Shown one piece after another: positions 48 through 9,124 of a stretch of 9,124 bases of DNA. The position numbers and the translations under genes were made by a program. Position 1 is the stretch's first letter. Every line of letters starts with the position of its first letter. The notes beneath the pieces are model-generated. The model saw only the letters and a list, made by a program, of their open reading frames with translations, made no database searches and had not been told where the DNA came from. Origin of the DNA: Theionarchaea archaeon. GTDB lineage: Archaea > Methanobacteriota_B > Thermococci > Methanofastidiosales > SZ-28-30. The stretch is taken from assembly GCA_018992685.1 (NCBI GenBank), contig JACVGT010000017.1, positions 1 through 9,124 of the forward strand, read 5' to 3'.

Positions 48-1844
48 TCATTTTCTTTTTACGATGATTTTTCTGCCAATGAAGACAGCCACAACTACCA
101 CCAGTGAAGTAATGAGAATAATCAAAACCCACTGTGACAATGGTTTCTCAGGAGAAGGCGGAGCTTGAATGTCCTTTCCGGGTTGAATCGATTCTACTGA
201 CTGCGGAAAGGTCTGACAGCACCAGTCAGGCTCCCTGTCGTCAGCGGGATTGTTGGTTATATTCATCTGATCGGTACCATCAGCATTCATGACATAGATC
301 TCCTCATTGCCATCCCTATCCGATGTGAAGGCAATTTTCGTCCCATCCGGTGACCAGACAGGATACCAGTTATTGGCAGAATTCTCAGTGAGCTTCTCCA
401 CTGTCTTCCCATCTGAATCCATCACATAGATATCCCTATTCCCTTCCCAATCTGAATCGAATGCAATCTTCGAGCTGTCAGGGGACCAGGCAGGATCTCG
501 TCCATAAAAAGTCAAATCCTTCACATTACTCCCATCTGAGTTCATCATAACAATGCCACCTGCCAGTAGACAGCAAGCAATCTTCGAACCATCAGGGGAC
601 CAGTCAGGGGCAAAACCCCCGTCAAAGATTATTCTGACACTAGTTCCATCAGCATTCTGAATACAAATATATCCTCCTGCAGAAGCTATAGCATTTCCAT
701 CCGGGGACCAGGCTGGCCATCCATTATCATACTCTGTAATGGAGATATTTCTGTAATTTTTCCCATCAGAATCCATTATATATGCCTGGAAAAAGTCGCC
801 ACATTGGAGAGAAAATGCAATCTTCTGTCCATCTGGAGACCAGTCAGGATGAAAGTGTGAACAAGAATGAGTACTCAACTTGGTCAGGTTTTCCCCATCA
901 GGGTCCATAGAATAGATCTGGCTGCCCAGGTTGCTGTAAGCAGTGAATGCAATTTTTGTGCCGTCAGGGGACCATGCAAGTTCTTTATCATCAGCGGGAC
1001 CACTGGTAAGCCTTATCTTACTTGTCCCATCCTTATTCATGAGATAAACATCATAATCTCTTTCTTCTGCCCATGAGTACAGTATCTTTGTACCATCTGG
1101 TGACAGTACTGGATCCACAGCTGAAGAAGGGCTACCTTCGATTCTTCTTATGCTGCTGCCATCAGCTTTCATTGTGTATATGCCGCTCTCGTTATCCCGA
1201 ACTGAAGCAAAGATGATTTCACTGCCATCAGGAGACCAGGAAGGATCCCAGCCGTAACTATCCTCATTCTCAAGCCTTTCTATATCAGTTCCGTCTGAAC
1301 TCATGAGGTATATTGATTGAGTCTTATCCCCGCCTGAGACAAATACAATCTTCTTTCCATCAGGAGACCAGCAGGGATCAAAATCACTGCCTCGTCTGTG
1401 GGTCAGATTTATCTGCTCTGTCCCGTCTGCATTCATGACATAGATATCCTCACCACCGTATCGGCCCCTTACAAAAGCAATTCTTCTACCGTCAGGAGAC
1501 CAAGCAGGATTCCAGTCGTAAAAAGGATTATCAGTCAGCCTCTGTACATTGGTTCCATTGACATCCATGACATAGATGTCTTCATTCCCATCTCTCATTG
1601 AAGTGAAAGCAATTCGTGTCCCATCTGGGGACCAGGCAGGTCCAGAGTTAGTGAAGAAATTGTTTGTTACATTGGTTGGATCGGTGCCATCTGCATTCAT
1701 TATATAAATATGTGGAATGCTGTCCCTCCCTGAGATGAAGGCGAGCTTCCAAGAGTTATCAGGTTGCTCAGAAAAGAGGGACTGGCAGCCTATTATCAAG
1801 AGTCCTCCAAGAAAGAATGTGCAAAGATATTTAGTATCTAGCAT
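48..1844 (-). CDS. PD40/TolB-type beta-propeller lipoprotein-like surface protein
   Basis: A 598-residue secreted protein built almost entirely of PD40 (WD40-like, TolB C-terminal type) repeats. Eleven units carry the signature SPDG or SPDS (mostly WSPDG, followed by IAF and then an IYVMNADGT-like stretch). A twelfth half-unit (KLAFISGRD...IYIMNADGT) follows the signal sequence, and a short closing PDW precedes CCQ. Twelve units would suit two six-bladed propellers (inference). The N-terminus has a hydrophobic segment ending in a lipobox-like IIGC with Cys20. The C-terminus has a proline-rich linker, a membrane segment at about 572-590 and the tail RKIIVKRK. A start at 1865 is possible, but ATG at 1844 is preferred: AGGGG lies 8 bases upstream and the lipobox then falls at a normal distance. 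The gene overlaps the zincin stop by 7 bases (ATGCTAG), which suggests translational coupling. Such propellers usually bind proteins or peptides; no enzyme motif is seen. Confidence 0.88.
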   Translation of the reverse strand: MLDTKYLCTFFLGGLLIIGCQSLFSEQPDNSWKLAFISGRDSIPHIYIMNADGTDPTNVTNNFFTNSGPAWSPDGTRIAFTSMRDGNEDIYVMDVNGTNVQRLTDNPFYDWNPAWSPDGRRIAFVRGRYGGEDIYVMNADGTEQINLTHRRGSDFDPCWSPDGKKIVFVSGGDKTQSIYLMSSDGTDIERLENEDSYGWDPSWSPDGSEIIFASVRDNESGIYTMKADGSSIRRIEGSPSSAVDPVLSPDGTKILYSWAEERDYDVYLMNKDGTSKIRLTSGPADDKELAWSPDGTKIAFTAYSNLGSQIYSMDPDGENLTKLSTHSCSHFHPDWSPDGQKIAFSLQCGDFFQAYIMDSDGKNYRNISITEYDNGWPAWSPDGNAIASAGGYICIQNADGTSVRIIFDGGFAPDWSPDGSKIACCLLAGGIVMMNSDGSNVKDLTFYGRDPAWSPDSSKIAFDSDWEGNRDIYVMDSDGKTVEKLTENSANNWYPVWSPDGTKIAFTSDRDGNEEIYVMNADGTDQMNITNNPADDREPDWCCQTFPQSVESIQPGKDIQAPPSPEKPLSQWVLIILITSLVVVVAVFIGRKIIVKRK

Positions 1845-2263
1845 AGCACTGACCCCTGTATCCATCTTGTGAGTATCTCAGAAAGTGGAACTTGAGACTC
1901 CTGATTATATCCAACCCCGTAAAAGCACAGGTGAGTCACATGCATCACGAAATTCTTTTCACCCTTCGTGATGTCGCCTGAGGAGAATTCAACTCCGACC
2001 CAGGAAAGGGCAAGAAGGTATGAATATTCTACATTATAGATAGACTGATGCTCTGCATTCCTTGCTTCATCATTAGGAGGATCACCTAGAATAGCGTGAC
2101 ATGCCTCATGAAGGATGGTTAATGCCATATCTCCTACTTTTCCACCGCTGAAATTAATGGATATGCTTTCAAACCCCTCATGATTGTTTGTCTCTCCCCA
2201 ATCCGTGGGGGAGCCAGCCACCATGGAAACCACCACTACCATAACAACCATTGATTCTTTCAA
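1838..2263 (-). CDS. Small secreted zincin-like metalloprotease (HExxH), family not recognised
   Basis: A 141-residue protein. Residues 1-18 are a hydrophobic secretion or anchor segment rich in V and M, with a short basic start. The sequence LTILHEACHAIL contains a zinc-binding HExxH at residues 52-56 within a predicted helix. E71 or H72 in NAEHQ is the candidate third ligand. Together these support a metallopeptidase fold, although the protein is much shorter than most secreted zincins. The start could be GTG at 2266 or TTG at 2263. TTG is preferred because it lies exactly 8 bases after GGAGG, the same spacing and TTG-AAA context as the genes at 2820 and 9096. It is the first gene of a two- or three-gene operon, driven by the promoter at 2301-2315, and its last codons overlap the propeller start. 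The propeller may recruit or hold its substrate (inference). Confidence 0.75.
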   Translation of the reverse strand: MKESMVVMVVVVSMVAGSPTDWGETNNHEGFESISINFSGGKVGDMALTILHEACHAILGDPPNDEARNAEHQSIYNVEYSYLLALSWVGVEFSSGDITKGEKNFVMHVTHLCFYGVGYNQESQVPLSEILTRWIQGSVLC

Positions 2264-2804: not shown

Positions 2805-2814
2805 GAGGAGGTGA
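2805..2814 (+). promoter_or_regulatory. Full-length Shine-Dalgarno site that decides the start
   Basis: GAGGAGGTGA is a near-complete complement of the 16S rRNA 3' end. A GTG at 2811-2813 lies inside this site and so cannot be the start for a ribosome bound there. The next in-frame start codon, TTG at 2820-2822, is 8 bases from GGAGG and is taken as the true start. Confidence 0.7.
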
Positions 2815-2819
2815 AAAGA

Positions 2820-5168
2820 TTGAAAGGTAAGACAACTGCAACAATTCTGATACTATTGCTGAGCCTGAGTCTTTCTGCAGTTTCTTCGACAGACGATACC
2901 TTCAGTGTCACCTACACGTTTGAGCCCACAGTGGGCGGCTGCGGCGAGGTTATGGTGGAAGATACCTTCATGCAGGCCCTGCCAGGAGAGCCAATCCTCC
3001 CCTACCGGGCTGCCACAATTCTGTTACCACAGGAGGCACTGGTGAGGGATGTCAAGGTAAAGTGTGGTGAACCCGTGGTACAGACAGGTGTTGATCTCCC
3101 CTGGGGCCACCCCCCCTGCACCCTGGGCGGCACACCCGTGACTGTGAGCAGGAATGAAGAGATCTACAACTCCATGAACTGGTACCCCCATGAGGTATTC
3201 ACCGTGGTCTCTGTGGAATCGTTCAGGGGATTCCAGATACTGAACGTCATCCTGTATCCTGTGCAGTACCAGCCGAAGTCCGGTACGGTGAAGTTCTATC
3301 CCACCTTGACTGTTGAGGTACAGTTCGGAGCGGGTATGAAGAACAAGCTGTACAGGGGATTGCCCGCAGATGAGCAGGCTGTTATCTCCCTGGTGGACAA
3401 CCCAGAAATGGCAGAAACCTACGAGAGTGGACCTGTCCCATTACAGACCTATGAATACATCATCATCACCAACGACACCATGCAGTCAACGTTCCAGACC
3501 CTGGCTGACTGGAAAGCGTGTTTTGTCAATGGAACTGCTGTCTATACGGTTTCCTGGATTACTGCCAACTACTCTGGAAGAGACAACCCAGAGAAAGTGA
3601 GGACGTTTATAAGCGACATGTACACCAACTACGGAACCAAGTACGTCTTACTGGGAGGAGACATAGCTGCTGTTCCCTACAGAGGGTTCTACATCTCCAC
3701 AGGTGGCTATGTTGACTCTGACATGCTGGCTGATATGTACTTCAGGTGCCTTGATGGCACGTTCAATGATGACAATGACAGCTACTGGGGTGAGATCACT
3801 GATGGTATTGACTGGTATCCAGAGGTGGCTGTAGGAAGAGCACCTTGTGAGACAGTAACAGAAGCCGGAAACTTCGTGAACAAGGTCATAGCCTATGAAC
3901 AGGCAGAGAAACCCAAGAGAGCGCTGCTCCACGAGTCCAGAGTGGTTTCGGGCAATGTCCCGGATGCCCGATGTCTGGCCTGGAACTGTGATGACTATCT
4001 GCCGGGTGATTACTCCGTAGACTACGTCTTTGAAGAAGATACGGGCGGTGTTCCCAAGAGCAGATGGATCAGTCAGTGGGGTCAGAACCCCCTGGTAGTC
4101 GCACACATAGGACACGGAAACTCCACCGTTTACTACATCAACTACGAAAAGGATGTGGGTACGGTGAGCTGGTACAACTCCGACATAGCCTCACTCACCA
4201 ACACCTTCTGGCCCTGGACCACAAGCGTGGCCTGCATCACCGGACAGATTGAGTACAACGACTGCCTGGCAGAAGCCTATGTCATGGACCCAGACAATGG
4301 CGCTATTGCAGCCATCTACAACGACAACTACGGCTGGTTCATGACCACAGATGCCTGTGCTCTGAGTGGTGAATTCTGTGAGATGGAGTTCAGAGCGTGC
4401 TGGAGTGACGGGAAGGAGAAATTCGGTGACCTGCTCAACCAGGCACTGAGCTACATGATATCCTCTGCGTCATCTGACTCCTACTACAGGTGGTGCTTCT
4501 ACGAGAGGAACCTAGTGGGTGACCCAGAATCACCCTGTCTGACAAAGAGAGAATGCATACCCGTAGACAGTGTCACCATTACCTATCCTGTGGACGGACA
4601 GAAAGTGGATCAACCCATCACAGTCACCACATCAATTGAAGGATGCGTTGACACTGTGGAATTCTATGTTGATGGTGTTCTCATGTCCACAGATGCCACA
4701 GCACCGTTCGAATACTCCTTTGACCCCTGCCCCCTGAAGGAGGATGCAGACATGGTTATCTCCGTAAAGGGCTACTGTGCTGGCGAATTCACGAACGAAG
4801 ACTCAGTAACTGTCTATGTGGACTGCGTCCCACCGGAAACCTACATTACCATAACCAACCCACAGGACGGAGCCACAGTCAGTGGAACAATCTACATCAC
4901 AGCAGATGCCAGTGTCGATATTGACACCGTGGAATTCTACGTCGACGGCAAGTTGAAGTCCACTGATGATACCAGGCCCTTTGAGTGCAGGTGGAACACC
5001 AAGAGTGTCAAGGATGGAACCCACGTCCTGAAGGTGGAAGGGTACGCAAGCGGAGTGCCCAGTGCAACTGATGAGATCACAGTCACTGTTAAGAACAAGT
5101 CGAGCATTGCACTGCTCTCATTCCTGTTGCTGTTCCTGCCCGCAATTGTTATCAGAAGAAGACACTAA
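2820..5168 (+). CDS. Secreted C25 (gingipain-like) cysteine peptidase with two Ig-like domains and C-terminal anchor
   Basis: A 782-residue extracellular peptidase of family C25. Residues 1 to about 20 form a signal peptide (MKGK then a Leu-rich core). An N-terminal pro-region runs to about 205. The catalytic domain runs from YEYIIITND (about 211) to NLVGDPESPC (about 565), the usual GDP ending of the family. Both catalytic residues are visible: H432 in AHIGHGNST and C472 in SVACITGQ, followed by the conserved CLAEAYVM. Two Ig-like modules follow (about 583-665 and 675-757), then a membrane segment (about 762-777) and the tail IRRRH. The predicted role is a cell-surface, membrane-tethered peptidase. 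C25 enzymes cleave after Arg or Lys in Porphyromonas, but specificity here is unknown. Start choice: TTG at 2820, because the upstream GTG lies within the Shine-Dalgarno site. It has its own promoter and a terminator directly after the stop, so it is probably monocistronic. Confidence 0.92.
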   Translation: MKGKTTATILILLLSLSLSAVSSTDDTFSVTYTFEPTVGGCGEVMVEDTFMQALPGEPILPYRAATILLPQEALVRDVKVKCGEPVVQTGVDLPWGHPPCTLGGTPVTVSRNEEIYNSMNWYPHEVFTVVSVESFRGFQILNVILYPVQYQPKSGTVKFYPTLTVEVQFGAGMKNKLYRGLPADEQAVISLVDNPEMAETYESGPVPLQTYEYIIITNDTMQSTFQTLADWKACFVNGTAVYTVSWITANYSGRDNPEKVRTFISDMYTNYGTKYVLLGGDIAAVPYRGFYISTGGYVDSDMLADMYFRCLDGTFNDDNDSYWGEITDGIDWYPEVAVGRAPCETVTEAGNFVNKVIAYEQAEKPKRALLHESRVVSGNVPDARCLAWNCDDYLPGDYSVDYVFEEDTGGVPKSRWISQWGQNPLVVAHIGHGNSTVYYINYEKDVGTVSWYNSDIASLTNTFWPWTTSVACITGQIEYNDCLAEAYVMDPDNGAIAAIYNDNYGWFMTTDACALSGEFCEMEFRACWSDGKEKFGDLLNQALSYMISSASSDSYYRWCFYERNLVGDPESPCLTKRECIPVDSVTITYPVDGQKVDQPITVTTSIEGCVDTVEFYVDGVLMSTDATAPFEYSFDPCPLKEDADMVISVKGYCAGEFTNEDSVTVYVDCVPPETYITITNPQDGATVSGTIYITADASVDIDTVEFYVDGKLKSTDDTRPFECRWNTKSVKDGTHVLKVEGYASGVPSATDEITVTVKNKSSIALLSFLLLFLPAIVIRRRH
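4566..5090 (+). repeat. Tandem Ig-like module duplication inside the C25 peptidase
   Basis: Two modules about 273 bases apart share the pattern TVEFYVDG-x-L-x-STD-x-T-x-PFE. They are also similar in DNA, for example GTGGAATTCTA near 4656 and near 4929. This points to an internal duplication with later divergence: the first module keeps several cysteines (CVD, CPLK, YCAG) where the second has mostly lost them. Confidence 0.65.
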
Positions 5169-5503: not shown

Positions 5504-7759
5504 ATGAAAAGGATTATGGGTATACTCTTTTTAGTTTTCCTGATTTCGCCTCCGCTCATTGTGCCTGCTTTCGAGAGCACTCAGGACTACTCGTTCAGGC
5601 TGGCTTGGGATGGGCCTCCCCGCACATCTTCAACAACATTTTTTGATGACATTACTGATGATGGACTCCAGGAGATCATGTATTCAGAGAAAGATGAAGA
5701 TGGTACTCTCTTCTTTACCGCTCTGGACACTTATGGAACCACGCTCTGGAGGGTTCCCCTTGAGGGATCTCTCCTGTGGTATATCTCCAAGGACATTGAT
5801 GACAACGGTCTGAGAGAGGTCTTCCTCATAACGCGCATGACCTCGACATCTGAAGAAAGAGCATCCGGTGTAGGACTGCGACGAATCTGGTGCTTCGACA
5901 CGGATGGTGTCCTCCTGTGGACTCATGATATGACCGTTGACCCCATGTGGGACGGGACATGGTTCAAGCGCTTCAGTCACGGTGGCTTCCTGGATAGTGA
6001 TGGAGATGGATACAAAGAATGTGTGATAGGTAATGTATTTCTTGATGACGATGGGACCGTCCTGGAAGTGTATGGTGACGAGTATTCCTACAGTGGGGGT
6101 GTTTATCAAGACCGCGATACTGAAGTACTATTCATATTCGTAAGAGAGACTGCAACGTCCTCCCTTGGAGAGTACACCTTTTGTTGCAGCATCTGCCACC
6201 CTGATGGAACAGAGCTCTGGCACAAAGAGGTTTCAGAATACACAATTCCTGCACTCCTTAAAGCTGGAGACACAACCCGGCTCTTCCTCGTACAGATTAA
6301 TAAGATGACAGAAATAGACCTCCACACCTTTGAAGAAACTGTCGTCCCTCTTCGTGTGGAGGGAAGATACATACCTGCTCTGCCAGAAATGGAAAGTATA
6401 GATGTAGATGGCGACGGCAAACATGAGTTTGTTGTTACAGCTGGGGATGTGAGTGACTTCGGGAGAGCTGCCGTTCTGGTCTATGATGAGAGCCTTCATC
6501 TGCTCTGGAGCTATACTGGTCCCAACTTTTCCTGCGAGATCAAAGATCTTGATGGAAATGGAACCTGTGAACTCTGCTTGTCTTACTGTCGTCATTTTTC
6601 TGCTTCTGGTCTTAATCCTTCATTTTTCCAGGTACTAGACTATGGCAGGTCTGAAAGGTGGAGAATCCTCTTCGATGATTGTTACGATTCCCCGAATTTT
6701 CTCGATATTGATGCAGATGGGAAAATAGAGATCATCATGGAGATGGATTTCACGCCTGAAGAAAAAGAACCGCGGTATCTGTACATTTTTGGGTCTGAAG
6801 GAGAAATGGAAAAGCAGATCAAGGTTCCCTTTGGGGGATCCCGGGATTTTGAGGATCTGGATGGTGATGGAGACCTTGATATATTCTATAACGTGAGAAA
6901 TGAAGGCGTATATGTGTACAGCAACACGAGAATTCAAGGTCTACTTGACAGCATATCCGGAGGAGAACCTCTTGAAGAGGTTGCCCTCGGGAACAGGGGA
7001 TTCAGGAGGGATAACGTGCCACCCATCTCACTGTACTGCGAGTACCAGAAGATTAAGGAGTTTTTCGATTATCCCCTTTCTGCTCCACTTCCGTACAGGA
7101 GGAAGATGGTCATCATCTTGAGCATACCTCTCATTCTGGGCCTGATTTTCTGCTATCACCTGGTTAGAGTGCTCAAGAAGGAGGAAAGTGACTGGGAGCC
7201 CTTGTGGGAATTTAAGAAGATCATACCGTATACATTGCTCCTGCTGGTAGCACCTGTTGGGTTGTTATACTTCATCTACAAGATTAGAAGGTCTACTGAA
7301 GAACTCAAGAACGCTCTGGGGTTCATGCGAATCAGGAGAAGACAACTCGTGGTCTCTGGAGCTGTGGGATTGATCTTTGGCCTGATCACCTGGGGAGCAA
7401 TCTACCTTAATGCTGTGAGTGTAGATCTCGGATTCAGAACAGAGAGCCAGCGAATAGTACTTTCAGTGGCAGTCCTTTCACTTGCGGTAGTTGCAAGCTT
7501 TGTGGAAGAAATCCTGTTTTCCGGGTATTTGTATCCGGTCGTGAGAAAGAGAATGGGGAGCTCGCGAGGGATCATCTTGACCGCTGCGGTGTTTGCCGTC
7601 CTCAATGTACAGGTGGTCTTGATTCCACTGTTTTTCGTACAGGCAATGATAAAAACCTACGCCTATGAGAGAACTCATTGCATCTGCATTCCCATGATCA
7701 TCCACGTCATCAACAATGCTCTCATTCTGGCTGGAACTATTCTGGTACTCGTAACGTAG
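5504..7759 (+). CDS. FG-GAP/EF-hand-like repeat ectodomain fused to a degenerate CPBP-type membrane protease domain
   Basis: A 751-residue surface protein. Residues 1 to about 23 are a signal peptide. The ectodomain to about 530 has calcium-binding-type DxDxDG loops, as in FG-GAP/VCBS propellers: DIDDNG 97, DSDGDG 164, DVDGDG 300, DLDGNG 348, DIDADG 401, DLDGDGD 451 and a weaker DDITDDG 48. Membrane segments lie at about 535-552, 574-592, 615-636, 651-667, 690-713 and 731-750. The last part resembles the CPBP (CAAX protease/bacteriocin-processing, ABI) family. E668-E669 and H734-xxx-N738 are present. The Arg usual in EExxxR is S673, and the His of FxxxH is N701 (FAVLN). Activity is therefore doubtful, and it may be a pseudo-enzyme or a binding and sensing module. 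Start: ATG 5504, leaderless, 25 bases from its TATA box. A hairpin/T-tract terminator follows. Confidence 0.85.
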   Translation: MKRIMGILFLVFLISPPLIVPAFESTQDYSFRLAWDGPPRTSSTTFFDDITDDGLQEIMYSEKDEDGTLFFTALDTYGTTLWRVPLEGSLLWYISKDIDDNGLREVFLITRMTSTSEERASGVGLRRIWCFDTDGVLLWTHDMTVDPMWDGTWFKRFSHGGFLDSDGDGYKECVIGNVFLDDDGTVLEVYGDEYSYSGGVYQDRDTEVLFIFVRETATSSLGEYTFCCSICHPDGTELWHKEVSEYTIPALLKAGDTTRLFLVQINKMTEIDLHTFEETVVPLRVEGRYIPALPEMESIDVDGDGKHEFVVTAGDVSDFGRAAVLVYDESLHLLWSYTGPNFSCEIKDLDGNGTCELCLSYCRHFSASGLNPSFFQVLDYGRSERWRILFDDCYDSPNFLDIDADGKIEIIMEMDFTPEEKEPRYLYIFGSEGEMEKQIKVPFGGSRDFEDLDGDGDLDIFYNVRNEGVYVYSNTRIQGLLDSISGGEPLEEVALGNRGFRRDNVPPISLYCEYQKIKEFFDYPLSAPLPYRRKMVIILSIPLILGLIFCYHLVRVLKKEESDWEPLWEFKKIIPYTLLLLVAPVGLLYFIYKIRRSTEELKNALGFMRIRRRQLVVSGAVGLIFGLITWGAIYLNAVSVDLGFRTESQRIVLSVAVLSLAVVASFVEEILFSGYLYPVVRKRMGSSRGIILTAAVFAVLNVQVVLIPLFFVQAMIKTYAYERTHCICIPMIIHVINNALILAGTILVLVT

Positions 7760-7787: not shown

Positions 7788-7825
7788 TCCTGGATTTCGG
7801 ACTCTCCAGGATATTTTCTTTCTTT
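7788..7825 (+). terminator. Hairpin plus T-rich terminator after the FG-GAP/CPBP gene
   Basis: TCCTGGA (7788-7794) and TCCAGGA (7805-7811) form a perfect 7-bp stem with a 10-base loop. A T-rich run (TATTTTCTTTCTTT, 7812-7825) follows at once. It lies 29 bases after the stop codon, and its T-tract merges into the first CRISPR half-repeat. Confidence 0.6.
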
Positions 7826-7889
7826 CAATCCTACTATCGACCTTTGGAGTTACATCGTAATCTCAGTCCTACCATAGTCTGATTTCAAC
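7822..7889 (-). CRISPR. Detached outer end of the CRISPR array: half repeat plus one full repeat
   Basis: 7860-7889 matches the array consensus at 26 of its 28 fixed positions (differences T to C at position 3 and A to G at position 7; central pair CC). 7823-7837 matches the first half (TTTCAATCCTA, then CT, then AT) and then diverges, so it is a broken repeat. The two starts are 38 bases apart instead of the normal 64-66, which implies a small deletion. The strand is given as minus because the reverse complement ends in GATTGAAAT, like archaeal crRNA 5' handles. These are the oldest, trailer-side units under that orientation. Confidence 0.65.
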
Positions 7890-7937
7890 TGGCTGGAGGG
7901 GAACCCACCGAGAAGCGCACATTTGGGGAGAATATGA

Positions 7938-8644: not shown

Positions 8645-8985
8645 ATTTCAGCCCTACAATAGTCTGTTTTCAACTATCCAGTTGCCCGTCTGTGCTGGAG
8701 TGGGTTGTAAATTTCAATCCTACAATAGTCTGATTTCAACTTGAGCTCATTCTCGAGAACACAGGAGAAATGATGAATTTCAATCCTACCATAGTCTGAT
8801 TTCAACCGGACATCAGAAAAACGCCAAGATACGGGCGTTTATTTCAATCCTATCATAGTCTGATTTCAACTACTGCCACGGTGGGAGCTGCTGTAGCCCT
8901 ACTCTATTTCAATCCTAACATAGTCTGATTTCAACCAACATCTGGGTGATTCCCAAGCTGACCGCTGCAACATTTCAATCCTATC
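8645..8985 (-). CRISPR. CRISPR array, five full repeats and one truncated repeat
   Basis: The 30-base repeats lie at 8645-8674, 8711-8740, 8777-8806, 8841-8870 and 8906-8935. A 14-base truncated repeat follows at 8972-8985. Spacers are 36, 36, 34, 35 and 36 bases. On the plus strand the repeat is ATTTCAATCCTA, two variable bases, then ATAGTCTGATTTCAAC. The central pairs are CA, CA, CC, TC, AC and TC in order. The reverse complement ends GATTGAAAT, like archaeal crRNA 5' handles, so transcription is probably leftward with the leader expected beyond 8985. The first repeat (8645) carries three further changes, as is common at the trailer end. No leader, no AT-rich flank and no cas genes are present. 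Confidence 0.93.
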
Positions 8986-9096
8986 GGAGACAAAGGCAAT
9001 CCTTCCGTAGTTATCTGACTCCATATGTGCAGAGGAAAAACTTCCTGTGTACGGGAGGGATATCATCAGGATCACCCAAACGTACTTCCTTTTCAA
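8899..9096 (-). pseudogene. Truncated PD40/TolB-type gene N-terminus fused into the CRISPR array
   Basis: TTG at 9096 stands exactly 8 bases after GGAGG (9109-9105) and is followed by AAA, as in the genes at 2820 and 2263. It opens a signal peptide (MKRKYVWVILMISLPYTGSF), a short linker and the first propeller strand GRIAFVSDR, ending at residue 39 (8980). This aligns with DNSWKLAFISGRD at the start of the propeller gene at 1844. After GATAGG the frame continues into the CRISPR repeat and a spacer, giving unrelated residues until TAG at 8899-8901. The rest of the gene is missing, so it cannot fold as a propeller. An upstream ATG at 9123 is in frame but has no visible ribosome binding site. 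Its promoter, outside the window, might now transcribe the array. Confidence 0.7.
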
Positions 9097-9124
9097 TGTG
9101 GCTTCCTCCTGCATTTTCTCCATC

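Follow-up and report, generated by a model that had tools for sequence, protein, structure and literature searches.

A CRISPR Array Cut Within a Repeat and Joined to a Gene Start

The window that we analyzed, which is the whole of contig C35 (9124 bp, one of 45 contigs of a 3.03-Mb MAG), ends in a CRISPR array that breaks off in the middle of a repeat, lacks a leader, and passes directly into the start of a gene for a PD40 propeller. The complete form of this gene, with an identical 5' end, lies on another contig of the same assembly, C26, and the join itself falls at a branch of the assembly graph. We lean, with moderate confidence, toward the reading that an old type I-B array, deprived of its leader and of the half of its last repeat that faced the leader, became joined to a second copy, ectopic or strain-specific, of the PD40 gene start.

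The array has the near-identical repeats, regular spacing, and unique spacers of a CRISPR locus (coordinates of all features are given in Table 1), with spacers of 34–36 nt, each of which is found only here. Four of the five full repeats read GTTGAAATCAGACTATNNTAGGATTGAAAT (one of these keeps the T before NN, with variant TG), and the full copy at the opposite end from the join is the most decayed, as one would expect if the array is an old remnant. Beyond the last spacer, the half repeat ATTTCAATCCTATC sits at the spacing of the array and matches the repeat in register at 14/14 positions, which is not a chance resemblance. Across 8645-8985 the repeats vary at two or three fixed inner positions (successively ACA, ACA, ACC, ATC, AAC, and ATC), and each of the two arrays on C26 is fixed for one of these variants, array 1 for AAC and array 2 for ATC. 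That variants matching both C26 arrays occur in neighboring repeats suggests, as far as sequence can tell, mixing between arrays.

On the other side of the join, the gene portion comprises ~48 codons that encode a signal-peptide-like segment and then NYGRIAFVSDR, running into GATAGGATTGAAAT. The ORF that results from this fusion has no match in Pfam, including the PD40 family PF07676, and so it does not by itself qualify as a PD40 propeller protein, whereas on C26 an identical gene start leads into the full gene, a minus-strand PD40 propeller ORF of 605 aa (36419-38236).

Table 1. Features at and near the join in the window
Feature	Position	Strand	Remark
CRISPR array: full repeats (five, 30 bp each) with four intervening spacers	8645..8935	-	same repeat family as the C26 arrays
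Full repeats	8645-8674, 8711-8740, 8777-8806, 8841-8870, 8906-8935	-	
Last (leader-proximal) spacer, 36 nt	8936..8971	-	found only here
Truncated repeat, 14 nt, 3' half only	8972..8985	-	GATAGGATTGAAAT on the minus strand
Bases common to repeat (ATC variant) and gene, CTATC / GATAG; join here	8981..8985	.	
PD40 gene 5' end	8981..9124	-	100% identical to C26:38094-38237; equals the 144-bp graph overlap
Fused ORF, 74 aa; gene start reads through half repeat, spacer, and next repeat	8899..9123	-	no Pfam match
Solo decayed repeat	7860..7889	-	possibly an outlier of the same old array

The Join Coincides with a Branch of the Assembly Graph

We compared all 90 contig ends for shared sequence and found more than 12 pairs of ends with exactly 144 (or 143) bp in common, many of them at insertion-sequence copies, which identifies 144 bp as the graph overlap of this assembly. 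Shared ends of overlap length are the behavior of de Bruijn assemblers at repeats, at regions shared between genomes, and at strain or within-population variation (PMC10914622). The 144 bp that close C35 also close C26, and, read from the contig sequences, the join is an assembly branch point, with C26 and C35 as the two branches leaving one 144-mer. Conservation within the family was considered as the cause of this identity and ruled out, the other PD40 paralogues of the genome being far more divergent (~65–81% DNA identity). An insertion-sequence-like multicopy element with ends near TGTTACCCATGTC breaks many other contigs (C2, C3, C5, C6, C14, C21, C23, C27, C28, C29, C33, and C34).

C35 crosses 8980/8981 unbroken, and neither the last 144-mer of the array nor its last spacer has any other continuation or occurrence in the bin, so that the array has one right-hand neighbor and the gene start has two. 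This single neighbor appears to argue against a minor chimera, which should retain the true leader-side path as well, and we infer that the join exists in cells. Some caution is due in that the join lies ~140 bp from the contig end and that the MAG is 91% complete and includes six small contigs consisting only of N, so that the missing leader half could lie in the sequence that is lacking.

A first alternative, which we regard as unlikely, is that the join is an artifact, due to chimeric molecules in the library or to an error in the graph where the contig ends, and that the true array goes on with a full repeat and its leader. It would account for a join placed exactly at a graph branch and contig end and for a gene start that belongs to an intact gene elsewhere, and the leader ends of active arrays may vary so much between cells that the true paths are pruned. 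However, the unbroken course of C35 across the join speaks against it, as does the lack in the bin of both an alternative array continuation and a third leader copy; moreover, with an overlap of 144 bp, the join could be assembled only if reads, or paths derived from reads, led through it, and 3–5 shared bases alone cannot create such a path.

We are equally doubtful that C35 derives from a co-occurring strain that has only the fused form and C26 from a strain with the intact gene. Regions shared between genomes and within-population variation do yield shared ends of overlap length (PMC10914622), but contamination of the bin is estimated at 0.7%, and a single-copy upstream region common to both strains should form a contig starting with the 144-mer, of which the bin holds none. 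This absence of any contig continuing upstream of the PD40 gene fits a short duplicated segment and, given the incomplete bin and its N-only contigs, is not proof of one.

Few Bases Are Shared at the Join

The first-pass annotation had described an array joined in mid-repeat to a PD40 gene through six shared bases, and had expected the lost gene to continue as GATAGGGAT. The observation is real at the sequence level, with five full repeats and a half repeat followed by the gene start, while its details need correction. The intact gene on C26 reads TCC GAT AGA GAC (SDRDSKSQIF), i.e., GATAGAGAC in place of the predicted continuation, and the shared stretch is not six bases but the five of GATAG if the repeat that was lost belonged to the ATC type, or the three of CTA if it was an AAC, ACC, or ACA variant. 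When we simulated random joins of the two sequences, at least 5 bp were shared in 0.6% of them and at least 3 bp in 5.8%, so that the shared bases are no more than suggestive; 3–5 bp give weak support for a specific repair route.

The Window Array Belongs to a Type I-B Repeat Family but Lacks the Leader

C26 carries Cas6, Cas8b, Cas7, Cas5, Cas3, Cas4b, and Cas1b, which constitute a type I-B system, between two arrays of the same orientation at 19254-22980 (array 1, 57 AAC-type repeats) and 32357-33772 (array 2, 22 ATC-type repeats). At the right end of both arrays we find the same leader, 99% identical over ~127 bp and containing TATA-like motifs, which fixes the orientation of the arrays and shows what the window array lacks. 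With these arrays flanking the I-B cas genes, the window array has in common the 30-bp repeat family, down to identical variants, the orientation, and the spacer size; unlike it, both are uniform in their repeats and have a conserved leader beside the cas genes. Where a leadered array has its leader directly beside a complete first repeat, the first repeat of the window array is cut to 14 nt. The leader is absent from the window and occurs elsewhere in the bin only beside the two C26 arrays, and a search of the bin for an orphan leader with the missing half repeat found none. Within array 1, one 37-nt spacer is present twice in succession (C26:20342-20445).

Proposed Origin of the Join

How the join arose, and with what functional consequences, we infer as follows. 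A short, old array of the type I-B system would have lost its leader together with the leader-side half of its last repeat, and their place would have been taken by another copy, ectopic or strain-specific, of the start of the PD40 propeller gene that C26 carries in intact form. Illegitimate end joining, or else a template switch, at 3–5 bp of homology probably produced the join. The gene start may have been copied to the array, a second full copy may have been cut down later, or two strains may have been co-assembled. Most likely, we are dealing with no new kind of CRISPR locus but with an ordinary illegitimate join, or with what strain mixing or assembly has left behind.

A local event, in which a full PD40 gene stood beside the array until most of it was lost, along with the leader and half a repeat, in a microhomology-driven deletion, was the mechanism suggested by the first-pass annotation, and we judge it improbable. 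Its premises hold in part, in that the array is truncated in mid-repeat and leaderless with some microhomology (3–5 bp) at the join, and order and orientation fit as well, a leadered array on C26 also lying to the left of the same minus-strand gene. The deletion itself finds no support, however: C26 carries the gene whole, its 5' end identical to that in the window, and neither the window array nor its left flank is present in the 38 kb of this contig, where we find only other arrays built on the same repeat and paralogues, with 67–71% DNA identity, of the PD40 and C25-peptidase genes. The parents of the join, of which that on the gene side is known from C26 and that on the array side sets the number of shared bases through its lost half repeat, are not neighbors on C26. 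A local deletion would presuppose that the gene had recently been duplicated beforehand, or else that one strain lost a very large segment, in which event C35 should have been broken by the path of the undeleted array.

It had also been proposed that the rest of the PD40 gene or an intact leader be sought in relatives; the gene turned up complete within the same assembly, on C26, while the relatives gave no counterpart of the array. Among 60 related genomes, the window array and its left flank retrieved weak repeat matches only, and the sole genome of the same genus gave none. For the gene for a CAAX-type protease to the left of the array, the related genomes hold distant relatives only. Against genome contigs, the protein of this gene found no match and the C26 PD40 gene found only generic PD40 proteins (~25–44% identity). 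In exact scans, viral contigs gave no match to the gene start, to the last spacer, or to the boundary of repeat and leader.

Relation to Known Leaderless Arrays and Expected Function

An old remnant joined to a gene start, as we propose for the window, keeps its spacers and, without a leader, should take up no new ones. By analogy with leaderless loci, the window array probably acquires no spacers because its leader is lost: in Sulfolobus solfataricus, locus F is leaderless and is reported to be inactive in spacer uptake and invariant in content (PMC4390879). Both are archaeal leaderless arrays that stand beside leadered arrays of the same genome, but locus F has 88 spacers, whereas the window array has five, mixed repeats, and a half repeat fused to a gene. 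Recombination between arrays within one cell is also documented in Sulfolobus (PMC4390879).

Illegitimate joining at short homology is known from another archaeon with a type I-B system, Haloferax volcanii, in which microhomology-mediated end joining after self-targeting leads to deletions in the targeted gene (PMC7521656). The present join differs in that its parents are not adjacent on C26 and that the window spacers have no match in the genome beyond the array itself, on which ground a self-targeting origin was rejected; C26 array 2 gave weak repeat-like matches only.

Transcription of the remnant could occur only by read-through, e.g., from the promoter of the gene. That the fused gene start acts as a working promoter and keeps the old I-B array expressed as the tail of a secreted-protein transcript seems to us highly improbable. 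If the join is real, it is a further example of a CRISPR array severed from its leader and frozen, and it offers a clear end point for asking about remnant transcription; knowledge of CRISPR systems is left unchanged by it. The meaning of the junction changes once the graph neighbors of the contig are read, as the supposedly lost gene is intact elsewhere.

Other Repeats and Paralogous Genes

In addition to the array, a half repeat at 7822-7833 of the window, cut near the same point as that at 8972-8985, precedes the solo decayed repeat. Solo decayed repeats at three loci (window 7822-7920, C15:177-240, and C30:177-240) have similar right-hand flanks, TGG..GGG..GAACC..GAAGCGCAC.

C35 and C26 have two pairs of paralogous secreted genes in common: a 605-aa PD40 propeller (window 48-1865 vs. 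C26:36419-38236, 53% amino acid identity) and a C25 peptidase (window 2811-5168 vs. C26:8856-11528, 71% nucleotide identity). More PD40 genes lie on C3, C4, C8, C19, and C22. At 5504-7759, the window encodes a 751-aa protein that combines FG-GAP-like repeats with a C-terminal CAAX-type (Rce1-like) membrane protease, and its nearest relatives, at 37–38% identity, are found on C14 of the same genome and in one genus-mate.
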